Assembly: GCA_016196065.1 (NCBI GenBank)
Contig: JACPYL010000010.1
Location: 682,001-746,000, forward strand
Origin: Acidobacteriota bacterium
GTDB taxonomy: Bacteria > Acidobacteriota > Terriglobia > Terriglobales > Acidobacteriaceae
DNA length: 64,000 nucleotides
Direction: 5' to 3'
Below, one piece after another: positions 40,417-44,010 of the stretch. The translations under genes and the position numbers were made by a program. Each line of letters begins with the position of its first letter. The first letter of the stretch is position 1. The notes under the pieces are model-generated. The model was not told the DNA's origin, did no database searches, and saw only the letters and a program-made list of their open reading frames with translations.

Positions 40417-40641
40417 GGTGGACGCTCTTGTCCGTCGCTCCTGGTTTTGAGAGTGTTTCTTGGTTCTCTGTCTCTAGCAGTTTTGTATTATTGCGCCGCC
40501 GTGTTCCCCGCGTCTAAGTTGTCGCATCTCTAATTGTGTCCCCTCGTGGGTGGGGATACCCGACCTCGCGTCATGATCTAGCTGGCACGGTCGCAAGTCG
40601 AACGCTTCTCGCAATTGCTACAAACAAGAAATTCCGAATCT

Positions 40642-42045
40642 ATGGCAGACCCTACAACAACGGACACCGTTTCGGGCGCAGGTTTGCGGCGGGAACTTGG
40701 GTTGGCGTCGACTACTGCGGCCGTCATTGGCGGGATTATCGCGGTGGGCATCTTTCTCACTCCTGCTGGCATGGCCAAGGCGCTGGGATCTCCGTTCTGG
40801 CTGTTGTTGGTGTGGCTGGCGGTTGGGGCGATGACCTTGAGCGGCGGGCTCTGTTACGGGGAACTCGCGGGACGTTTCCCGAGTGCGGGTGGCGGCTATA
40901 TCTACCTGCGAGAATGCTTCGGGCCGCGTCTCGCGTTTCTCTTTGGTTGGATGTGCCTGCTGGTGATGGACCCGGCCGTCACAGCCTCTCTCGCAACCGG
41001 ACTTGCTGGATACTTCAACTACATTGTCCCCTTGCATCCGCTGTTTTCGAAGCTAGTCGGGGTGGGAGTGATCTGGGGACTCTGCCTGCTGAACATTCTG
41101 AGCATCCGAGGCATGGCTGGATTCATTCGTTGGAGCACCTGGTTGAAACTGGGTCTGCTCGGATTCCTGACCATCTGGGCCTTTGCCTTCCGGTTAGGTT
41201 CGTGGTCGAACTTCGTTCCGATCGTGGCGCAACATCCCGGCTCGTTGCCGCTCGCGCCGGCGCTGGGCGTGGGCGTGGTTGGCGCCTTCTTTTCTTTCGG
41301 GGGCTGGTGGGATGTAGGAAAAATTGCCGGTGAAGTCCGCGACCCAGGCCGCACTCTGCCTCGCGCCTTACTATTGGGTATGCTCGCGGTCACAGCCGTT
41401 TACATCATTGTCAGCGCGGTTTTTCTGTACCTCGTGCCGCTCGACAAAGTGACATCGGACCAGACGTTTGTCGCACAGGCCGGGGCAGTTTTATTCGGCC
41501 CGACCGGGGGAGTCGTCTTTGCGGGAATCGTTATCATCTGCCTGGTAGGAAGCCTGGCCGCGCTCATCATGTCCGCGCCGCGAGTCTACTACGCGATGGC
41601 GAACGATGAATTGTTCTTCCCCGCGGTAGCGAGGACTCATCCGCGCTTCGGCACGCCCGCGAATGCGATTGTCATCCAGGGATCGATTGCGTCGTTGCTG
41701 GTGTTGGTTGGTAGTTTCGAACAGATTATTTCCTACGCGCTATTCATCGTCGTTCTGTTTCTAGGAATCACAGTGTCGGGCCTGTTCATCCTTCGGTCGC
41801 GCCAACAAGTGGGCGACTCGGTAGCCTTGACTCCAGGCTATCCTGTAACACCGCTGGCATTTCTGGTTCTGGTTGCGCTTATGCTATTTCTGGTCGGGGC
41901 GCATAGCCCGAGAGGGGCAATGATGGGCGTGCTGGTTGTGTCCGCGGGATTGCCAGTCTACGAGATCTTTCGACGTCGAAAGACACACGCAATCACCCAG
42001 CAACCCATCGTTGGAGAAACTCTGGCTCTTTCTGAAGAGGCTTAG
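40642..42045 (+). CDS. APC-family amino-acid permease
   Basis: A 467-residue permease with twelve membrane helices of the APC (LAT-like) group. The first helix carries the substrate-binding GIF-type sequence GGIIAVGIFLTPAG, and helix 2 continues with SGGLCYGELAGRFPSAGGGY. It imports or exchanges amino acids. I start at ATG 40642; TTG 40615 would add nine residues. The stop is 3 bp before the selenoprotein-like gene, so the pair is very likely cotranscribed. Confidence 0.92.
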   Translation: MADPTTTDTVSGAGLRRELGLASTTAAVIGGIIAVGIFLTPAGMAKALGSPFWLLLVWLAVGAMTLSGGLCYGELAGRFPSAGGGYIYLRECFGPRLAFLFGWMCLLVMDPAVTASLATGLAGYFNYIVPLHPLFSKLVGVGVIWGLCLLNILSIRGMAGFIRWSTWLKLGLLGFLTIWAFAFRLGSWSNFVPIVAQHPGSLPLAPALGVGVVGAFFSFGGWWDVGKIAGEVRDPGRTLPRALLLGMLAVTAVYIIVSAVFLYLVPLDKVTSDQTFVAQAGAVLFGPTGGVVFAGIVIICLVGSLAALIMSAPRVYYAMANDELFFPAVARTHPRFGTPANAIVIQGSIASLLVLVGSFEQIISYALFIVVLFLGITVSGLFILRSRQQVGDSVALTPGYPVTPLAFLVLVALMLFLVGAHSPRGAMMGVLVVSAGLPVYEIFRRRKTHAITQQPIVGETLALSEEA

Positions 42046-42048
42046 TCC

Positions 42049-42684
42049 ATGGCTGCAAACGAAGAAGATCACAATCACGGCCCGCTAGGTGCTGGCGCTC
42101 CAGACGCAACACCTGCGACTAAGATCAGGATTATCGAAGATGCCGAAGCCGTGGGAGAAACGGCGGCTGCCTACGATTACTGGCGTGCCGGATCAGGCCG
42201 ACAGAAGGTCCCCGGGATCATCAAGTGTTTTGGGGCCAGGCCGGATTTCCTGCGGCAGGTCGTGGACTTTTCCAATACCGTACATTTTTCCGAAGGCCAT
42301 CTTTCGCGACGGCACAAGGAGATGATTGCCAGTTACGTCTCGTATCTGAATCGGTGTCCGTATTGACTGGACAGCCACGCTTACTTCCTGCGTGTTCAGG
42401 GAGCCAATGATCAATGTGTAGCCGCGGTCCTCGAAGGCAATTTGGAAGAAGCCGGCATGACGGAACCAGAACGCGTTCTGATGGACTACGTGAAACTGAT
42501 TACCGAGGCGGCGTATCGTTCCACGTTTGAGGATGTTGAGAAACTGCGCGCCTCTGGCTGGAAAGAAGAGCAGATTGCAGAGGCGGTCTATATCACGGCA
42601 ATGTTCGCATTCTTCAACCGGGTTGCGGATGCGTTCGGCGTTCCTCCGCAGAATTATCTGCAGTCGGGGAAAATGACACCGTGA
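42049..42684 (+). CDS. AhpD-like peroxidase-related selenoprotein (in-frame UGA = Sec106)
   Basis: A 211-codon gene in which codon 106 is TGA (42364-42366). The frame continues without a break for another 105 residues homologous to the family. Around it the sequence reads SYLNRCPY-U-LDSHAYFLR, exactly the CxxC-x3-H motif of AhpD/carboxymuconolactone-decarboxylase peroxidases with the resolving cysteine replaced by UGA, so CxxU. A SECIS-like hairpin follows directly. AhpD-like selenoproteins are known. Likely role: thiol- or selenol-dependent peroxide reduction. Alternatives are a pseudogene or a sequencing error in a Cys codon; codon conservation beyond UGA makes them less likely. Confidence 0.85.
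42384..42403 (+). promoter_or_regulatory. Bacterial SECIS-like element
   Basis: Seven-bp stem CTTCCTG/CAGGGAG (one G-U pair) with the loop CGTGTT. It begins 17 nt after the UGA codon and its loop starts 24 nt after it, within the spacing known for bacterial SECIS elements, with a G at loop position 2 as expected for SelB contact. It lies inside the coding region, as required in bacteria. Confidence 0.75.
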
Positions 42685-42726: not shown

Positions 42727-44010
42727 TTAGTTTTCCGGGCGCGTGCCAATCAGGATCGCGGTCGCGTCGTCGCGTAAGCCGCTGCCATTCACGAATTTCC
42801 TCACGTCCATCAACAGGCCTTCGAGACAAATATCCGGGGATTGCATTTGGGCGAGCAACCGGTCGGCTCCGTACTCTTCGCCGGAGGCGAGAGCGGCCTC
42901 CGTGATGCCGTCGGAATAAATGGCGAGGCGCGCCTGCGGGCCGAGAGTGATTTCAGTCTCAGAATATTCGCTGGCGGCGATGCCGAGTGGAAGACCAAGC
43001 CTGGTCGCGATCCATCGATGACCACTCGGTTCGACCAATAGCGGCGGCAGATGGCCGGCATTGGCGATCCGCAACTTGCGTGTCGACGGATCGAACTCCG
43101 CGTACACCATCGTGACGAAACGTCCACTCGGAAAATCTTCCACCATCAATTTATTGAGGCGGCTGAGCACTTCGCCCGGTCCGGAGCCAGTCTGCGCGAG
43201 CGAGCGCAACATGCCACGAGTGGCGGACATCAGTAGAGCAGCGGCAGTTCCTTTGCCTGACACGTCGGCGAGAACCAGTCCCCAACAGCCATTTGCCAAA
43301 GGGATGAAGTCGAACCAGTCGCCACCGATGGCGCCCGCGGGAATCGACAGTCCAGATACGCTGAAGCCGGGGATCAAAGGGGAACTGCGGGGGAGGAGTG
43401 CCTGCTGAATCGAGCGCGCCTCGGCGGCTTCGCGGCTCATGCTTTCGCGCTGCTCTCGTTCGTTGTGGAAACGATGTGCATTCTGGACGGCCACGGCCAC
43501 GTGCGAGCAAAACCCTTGCAACAGGCGCAAGTGGGCTTCGGAGAATGCGTCCAGATCGCAGTGCGAGGCGGTGAACACGCCGATCAAATCATTCTCGACG
43601 TGCAGCGGAATCGCCACTTCCGAGCGGATGTCCGGCTCACATGGGTGGTAATAAGGATCGAGTGCAACGTCGGGCGCGTACCGCATCTTGCGGGTGGCGG
43701 CCACATGTCCCACCATTCCCTGGGTGCCGATCTTGAGCCGATGTCCCTTGCCGTGCACGGAACAGCCACGCATTCCAGTGAGGACCAGTTCCGATGTAGC
43801 GGCCTCGTGCAGGTAAATGTTGATTTCGACGCAGCCGAGCGACGCGGCAACCTCGTCGGCGACGCGCTGTACGATTTCATCCAGGTCGAGGCTGGAGTTG
43901 ATTCTCTGGGCAAACTTCTGGAGGCGCACCAGTTCGGCAACCTTGACGCCAGTGGCCTCTGATGTGTGCAGCCCGGTCGGGTTGAAATCGGTGATCGGAG
44001 TTGTCGCCAC
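42727..44010 (-). CDS. GAF-PP2C (RsbU-like) serine phosphatase
   Basis: A 427-residue protein. Residues about 25-185 form a GAF domain that could bind a small ligand; about 230-425 are a PP2C/SpoIIE phosphatase with metal-binding motifs GGDWFDF, LVLADVSGKG, AIYSDGITEA and LRDDATAI. This type dephosphorylates anti-anti-sigma factors in stress-signalling partner switches. No RsbV/RsbW gene is in the window. Confidence 0.92.
   Translation of the reverse strand: MATTPITDFNPTGLHTSEATGVKVAELVRLQKFAQRINSSLDLDEIVQRVADEVAASLGCVEINIYLHEAATSELVLTGMRGCSVHGKGHRLKIGTQGMVGHVAATRKMRYAPDVALDPYYHPCEPDIRSEVAIPLHVENDLIGVFTASHCDLDAFSEAHLRLLQGFCSHVAVAVQNAHRFHNEREQRESMSREAAEARSIQQALLPRSSPLIPGFSVSGLSIPAGAIGGDWFDFIPLANGCWGLVLADVSGKGTAAALLMSATRGMLRSLAQTGSGPGEVLSRLNKLMVEDFPSGRFVTMVYAEFDPSTRKLRIANAGHLPPLLVEPSGHRWIATRLGLPLGIAASEYSETEITLGPQARLAIYSDGITEAALASGEEYGADRLLAQMQSPDICLEGLLMDVRKFVNGSGLRDDATAILIGTRPEN

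Follow-up and report, generated by a model that had tools for sequence, protein, structure and literature searches.

An AhpD-like gene with a predicted selenocysteine codon and its genomic neighborhood in Acidobacteriota

Results

We analyzed a 64,000-nucleotide stretch of an Acidobacteriota genome (assembly GCA_016196065.1, contig JACPYL010000010.1), referred to here as the window, and in it a gene predicted to encode an AhpD-like selenoprotein, ahpD(Sec), which directly follows an amino-acid permease gene (Table 1). From its ATG to the terminal TGA at 42682-42684, the frame holds a single internal stop, the TGA of codon 106, and sequence comparison strongly supports reading that codon as selenocysteine (Sec). 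The original prediction, made from the sequence alone, had the frame interrupted by this TGA and nothing else, and its coordinates and the resulting CPYU motif, a CxxU with a conserved in-frame UGA, proved exact. The standard open reading frame (ORF) list of the window contains only an ORF of 105 amino acids here (42049-42366), so that ordinary annotation would truncate the gene, as had been foreseen.

Table 1. Features of the ahpD(Sec) locus and further predicted selenoprotein genes of the same genome
Feature	Position	Strand	Remarks
AhpD-like selenoprotein gene, ahpD(Sec)	42049..42684	+	CMD fold, TIGR01926; 211 residues, TGA codon 106 predicted as Sec
In-frame TGA, codon 106	42364..42366	+	read as Sec; second position of CxxC-type motif, giving CPYU
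TGT, Cys103	42355..42357	+	first residue of CPYU, proposed resolving Cys; invariant in 25 aligned sequences
CAC, His110	42376..42378	+	invariant His, 4 residues past Sec
GAAGAGG, possible ribosome-binding site	42034..42040	+	8 nt ahead of ATG; by inspection only
Proposed SECIS hairpin, CTTCCTG-CGTGTT-CAGGGAG	42384..42403	+	starts 17 nt past TGA; loop from 24 nt past UGA
APC-type amino-acid permease (AA_permease_2)	40615..42045	+	stop 3 nt ahead of ahpD ATG; start putative
GAF-SpoIIE phosphatase	42727..44010	-	convergent neighbor, outside the unit
Deiodinase-like selenoprotein gene (predicted)	L127:1471-2253, contig C25	-	260 residues, U122, N-terminal hydrophobic segment
Second AhpD-like selenoprotein gene (predicted), CVYU	L010:1498-2064, contig C12	-	TIGR01926 110.7 bits

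The AhpD-like identity of the protein, as first proposed, is agreed on by Pfam, NCBIfam and the predicted fold. TIGR01926 scores 99.9 bits against a curated cutoff of 81.8, and its match spans residues 43 to 201, running across the TGA, which bears out the claim that homologous sequence continues past this codon. The predicted model has a pLDDT of 88.9, and its top structure matches are chains of the AhpD/CMD fold. Three other models stayed below their cutoffs, namely, the AhpD-related (seleno)protein with CFYUT (NF041238; 66.1 bits versus 175), the YciW-related (seleno)protein (NF053654; 22.7 versus 310) and classical AhpD (TIGR00777; 21.3 versus 191.95). The alkyl hydroperoxide reductase AhpD of D. 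radiodurans (PDB 6k40) has Cys rather than Sec and is 28% identical to the window protein, and the debrominase Bmp8 (PDB 6ohi/6ohj) shares the fold at 17% identity and with a marginal profile match (E 0.088).

The genome to which the window belongs (5.5 Mb in 29 contigs) holds a complete bacterial Sec-decoding set. Its tRNA-Sec gene scores 67 bits and is called SeC with anticodon tca by ARAGORN, and profile searches recovered selA (548.8 bits; cutoff, 267.9), selB (380.4 bits; cutoff, 242.25) and selD (364.2 bits; cutoff, 125). Absence of selA, selB or selC had been named beforehand as evidence against a selenoprotein; all three are present, as is selD, the protein genes above their cutoffs. 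The tRNA-Sec gene (L001:1497-1593, minus strand) adjoins a frame that by eye resembles a phage-type integrase, and the place is possibly an integration site.

To follow codon 106 among relatives, 40 ahpD loci were collected from genome contigs by peptide patterns of the window protein. Loci found in this way are close relatives, with identities ranging from 83% to 49%, and Occallatibacter savannae AB23 and Acidicapsa dinghuensis 4GSKX are among the organisms represented; the fortieth locus is a fragment without codon 106. TGA stands at this codon in 38 of the 39 that cover it, recurring in assemblies of related species, and TGC in one (L062, Planctomycetota). More distant relatives include Cys forms, and all 12 Cys forms that were read have Cys at this position. 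L054 carries, besides its Sec gene, a second and oppositely oriented ahpD copy (L054:469-1005, minus strand) in which GGC, for Gly, replaces the Sec codon.

The TGA form is also tied to selA. Among 200 genomes drawn from the order, 55 had an ahpD match, and 29 of these had the TGA form, as the window's gene in 19 and as a second branch in the rest. Counted at E <= 1e-60, selA was found in 28 of the 29 TGA-form genomes versus 89 of the 200 overall, and in 4 of the 26 genomes classed as Cys by matches without an internal TGA, the codon itself being read for 11 of these (L085-L095). The sole TGA-form genome without a selA match is G074, in which the genome-wide search covered selA. A selB match there starts at query residue 83, just upstream of ahpD(Sec), and this selB is seemingly shortened at the N terminus. 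ARAGORN found no tRNA-Sec in the three best candidate loci of G074, and no run of N lies within the fetched stretch. Possibly, this genome is losing the Sec trait, or its assembly contains an artifact. At L096, in the same genome, ahpD(Sec) and a deiodinase-like selenoprotein gene, dio(Sec), are retained beside the apparently shortened selB.

Bacterial selenocysteine insertion sequence (SECIS) elements are conserved stem-loops just 3' of the UGA, with a G in the apical loop. A 7-bp hairpin with the loop CGTGTT had been predicted to begin 17 nucleotides past the UGA and was found exactly there. Of 39 acidobacterial Sec genes, 38 have a 7-bp stem with a 6-nucleotide loop at this same distance from the UGA, the stem sequence being identical in 37, and all 39 have a G in the apical loop, so that a conserved stem-loop with a loop G does stand just past the UGA. 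All six planctomycete Sec genes have a shifted 6-bp stem with an AGTT loop. The stem-loop is accompanied by synonymous constraint: across the 39 acidobacterial Sec sequences, codons 112 to 119 show 0.28 of the expected synonymous variation versus 0.86 gene-wide, the lowest value of any eight-codon window, and none of 100,000 random column sets is equally low. The TAT preceding the TGA, the CTG at codon 114 and the CAG at codon 117 are each present in 39 of 39. A fossil SECIS in the Cys forms was considered, as hairpin-like stems occur in L062, L087, L088, L089 and L091, yet none of the 12 Cys forms exceeds a null of synonymous recoding, and therefore we make no such claim. A promoter and terminator scan gave chance-level results.

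In a phylogenetic tree (70 rows; 57 Sec, 12 Cys and 1 Gly), the Sec genes that Acidobacteriota have in this branch fall mostly into two groups, that of the window with 17 rows (support, 99/99) and a sister group with 20 rows (support, 93/96); a third, small group consists of L052, L058 and L082. Of the 17 rows in the window's group, 9 have an APC permease directly upstream of ahpD(Sec), as does L052, outside it. The flanks of L030 and L035 are too short to judge, and the permease is absent in L031, L055, L111 and L112, all with flank long enough to show one. No permease lies directly upstream of ahpD(Sec) in the sister group. The permease neighbor pointed out in the original prediction is thus real in the window, where the two genes are probably cotranscribed, but of limited distribution. 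Related APC permeases at L102:2051-3352 (plus strand) and L113:1967-3289 (minus strand) adjoin a second-family AhpD(Sec) gene and two AhpD-like frames, respectively, so the link between permease and AhpD recurs.

The sister group has selB directly upstream of ahpD(Sec) in 15 of 20 rows, with the full selD-selA-selB order visible in 11 and some others ending at a contig edge. The gene directly downstream, in all but L051 (19 of 20), is deiodinase-like and likewise contains an in-frame TGA (FGSYTUPPFRREV). Two of seven loci in Planctomycetota have a deiodinase-family gene of the Cys form directly upstream of ahpD: in L059 the AhpD is Sec and the neighbor (NF038285, 485.4 bits) is an EF-hand fusion, and in L062 the AhpD is itself the Cys form.

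At least three selenoprotein genes are predicted in the window's genome: ahpD(Sec), a deiodinase-like gene and a second AhpD-like gene. The deiodinase-like gene, on contig C25, is not linked to ahpD(Sec) in this genome. Its product matches Pfam T4_deiodinase at 105.6 bits, falls below the NF038285 cutoff (195.2 versus 250) and has types II and III iodothyronine deiodinase as its nearest solved relatives by sequence. In the second AhpD-like family, the same 7-bp hairpin, ACGCAGA-GTT-TCTGCGT, follows the TGA in all 12 members seen. The synonymous-constraint test was positive for both the deiodinase-like (38 sequences) and the second AhpD-like (12 sequences) genes, with 0 of 20,000 samples as low in each case. 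The second-family ahpD of G116 (L097:1550-1830) appears, by eye, frame-disrupted upstream of the Sec codon.

Genomes such as G095 carry both ahpD(Sec) and dio(Sec). Within the order sample, 19 genomes have AhpD(Sec), and Dio occurs in 17 of these (all except G063 and G182) versus 18 of the 181 others; among selA-positive genomes the counts are 16 of 18 versus 18 of 71. Because the genomes share ancestry, Fisher tests on these counts overstate their independence. Of 396 genomes of the phylum, 2 have AhpD(Sec) at E <= 1e-40 and 18 have the deiodinase-like gene, with an internal TGA in 17 of the 18; a single genome has both. An obligate pairing of the two selenoproteins was rejected on account of the 18 of 181 genomes with Dio and no AhpD(Sec) and the overlap of one genome in 396. 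Direct electron transfer from AhpD to the deiodinase is likewise disfavored, because by inspection their compartments probably differ.

Discussion

We conclude that the window very probably encodes, on its plus strand, an AhpD-like selenoprotein in which the UGA at 42364 is read as Sec and which is likely a selenol-thiol peroxidase. The folding energy of the hairpin weighs against this conclusion: it is not beyond chance (z = 0.36, with 128 of 200 shuffles folding as well), and against the synonymous recoding null p is 0.14. That null gave p < 0.05 in none of the 39 acidobacterial and none of the 6 planctomycete Sec genes, and in 11 of the 12 second-family AhpD-like Sec genes. With such values, the energy is unusable as SECIS evidence, and the case for the internal SECIS originally claimed relies instead on conservation, namely, on the conserved stem and the synonymous constraint. 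We propose the hairpin as a candidate SECIS with a putative role in SelB binding.

A selenol-thiol peroxidase would work as follows. SelB, guided by the hairpin 17 to 37 nucleotides past the UGA, would deliver Sec-tRNA and so complete the CPYU active site. Sec106, which takes the place of the peroxidatic Cys of AhpD (the second of its pair), would attack a substrate that is presumably a hydroperoxide, Cys103 would resolve the intermediate as a selenenylsulfide, and a putative dithiol reductant would recycle it. The enzyme is probably cytosolic, and the upstream permease is probably coexpressed with it.

Two alternatives dispense with Sec. Were the TGA a true stop, the gene would be a pseudogene, encode a truncated protein or contain a sequencing error, in keeping with the 105-amino-acid ORF of the standard code and with L054, where a Gly copy accompanies the Sec gene and shows that odd copies exist. 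However, 38 of 39 relatives share the TGA, residues on either side of it are conserved while synonymous sites vary freely, and the genome has the Sec machinery. These findings leave this explanation with next to no probability, and we reject it because both the TGA and the protein sequence flanking it are conserved. Insertion of some other residue, whether through a suppressor or through leaky read-through, has in its favor that a limited amount of read-through would yield the full-length product. This is very improbable given the Cys at this position in the 12 Cys forms, the presence of tRNA-Sec and SelA, SelB and SelD, the tracking of selA by TGA forms, and RNA-level constraint just downstream, as SelB-dependent recoding needs.

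Other possibilities accept Sec and concern function. The AhpD-fold debrominase Bmp8 and the deiodinases attack the halogen of organohalides, and by analogy AhpD(Sec) could be a reductive dehalogenase whose selenol attacks such a halogen, acting in the same pathway as the deiodinase-like selenoprotein. Bmp8 and the deiodinase-like neighbor suggest as much, but the two proteins are probably in different compartments and their genes rarely coincide outside the family (1 of 396 phylum genomes), making this function unlikely. We give similarly little credence to a broader proposal, that the two form a two-selenoenzyme module of Acidobacteriaceae, joined by selD-selA-selB in one lineage, which dehalogenates aromatics or reduces their peroxides and for which the Sec trait is largely kept. 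A further suggestion, compatible with the peroxidase, is that permease and AhpD form a transport-linked redox unit, the permease importing a thiol- or selenium-containing amino acid that would feed the enzyme or be processed by it. The 3 nucleotides separating the genes, the 9 of 17 rows with a permease in the window's group, and the related permeases in L102 and L113 speak for such a unit; L031, L055, L111 and L112 nevertheless lack the permease, and the sister group does not have it directly upstream. We hold the suggestion to be tentative and rather doubtful.

The AhpD-like CxxU selenoprotein family (COG2128) has, according to the available text, been known since 2005 (PMC1088965), consistent with the original prediction that it was familiar from environmental data, and it is listed with TIGR01926 in the accessible part of a 2026 review (PMC13188914). 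The window gene, whose product shares the TIGR01926 model and the CxxU motif, adds an acidobacterial member. The members reported in the available text come from marine metagenomes and other bacteria, and that text describes neither the acidobacterial group nor its permease link nor the sel-ahpD-dio cluster. Nor was the cluster found described in the parts of the literature searched; supplementary files lay outside the search, so the window gene may be listed there. In an earlier reported read, as far as its description is available, an AhpD-like selenoprotein gene adjoins a thioredoxin-fold selenoprotein gene, as in the sel-ahpD-dio loci, but the partner is Prx-like and the read a single one, whereas the acidobacterial partner is deiodinase-like, stands with sel genes and recurs in many loci. 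Fusions of deiodinase-like proteins to EF-hands, of the kind seen in L059, have been reported (PMC9402790, available text), and three known selenoprotein genes were counted in Occallatibacter riparius in 2025 (PMC12013277, available text), possibly with ahpD(Sec) among them. In Proteobacteria, fdhA lies with the Sec-insertion operon and, in the text available, is proposed to help maintain the Sec trait (PMC4807772); there too a selenoprotein gene sits among Sec-insertion genes, although the selenoproteins and the phylum differ.

These results place in Acidobacteriota a family whose reported members are largely from marine metagenomes, and they make selection at the RNA level visible in three families of selenoprotein genes within one genome, all three of which would be truncated if read by the standard code. 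The selD-selA-selB-ahpD(Sec)-dio(Sec) cluster provides a genomic context for two families of unknown role and offers a testable idea of why the Sec machinery is kept, comparable to that for fdhA beside sel genes in the available account of Proteobacteria (PMC4807772).
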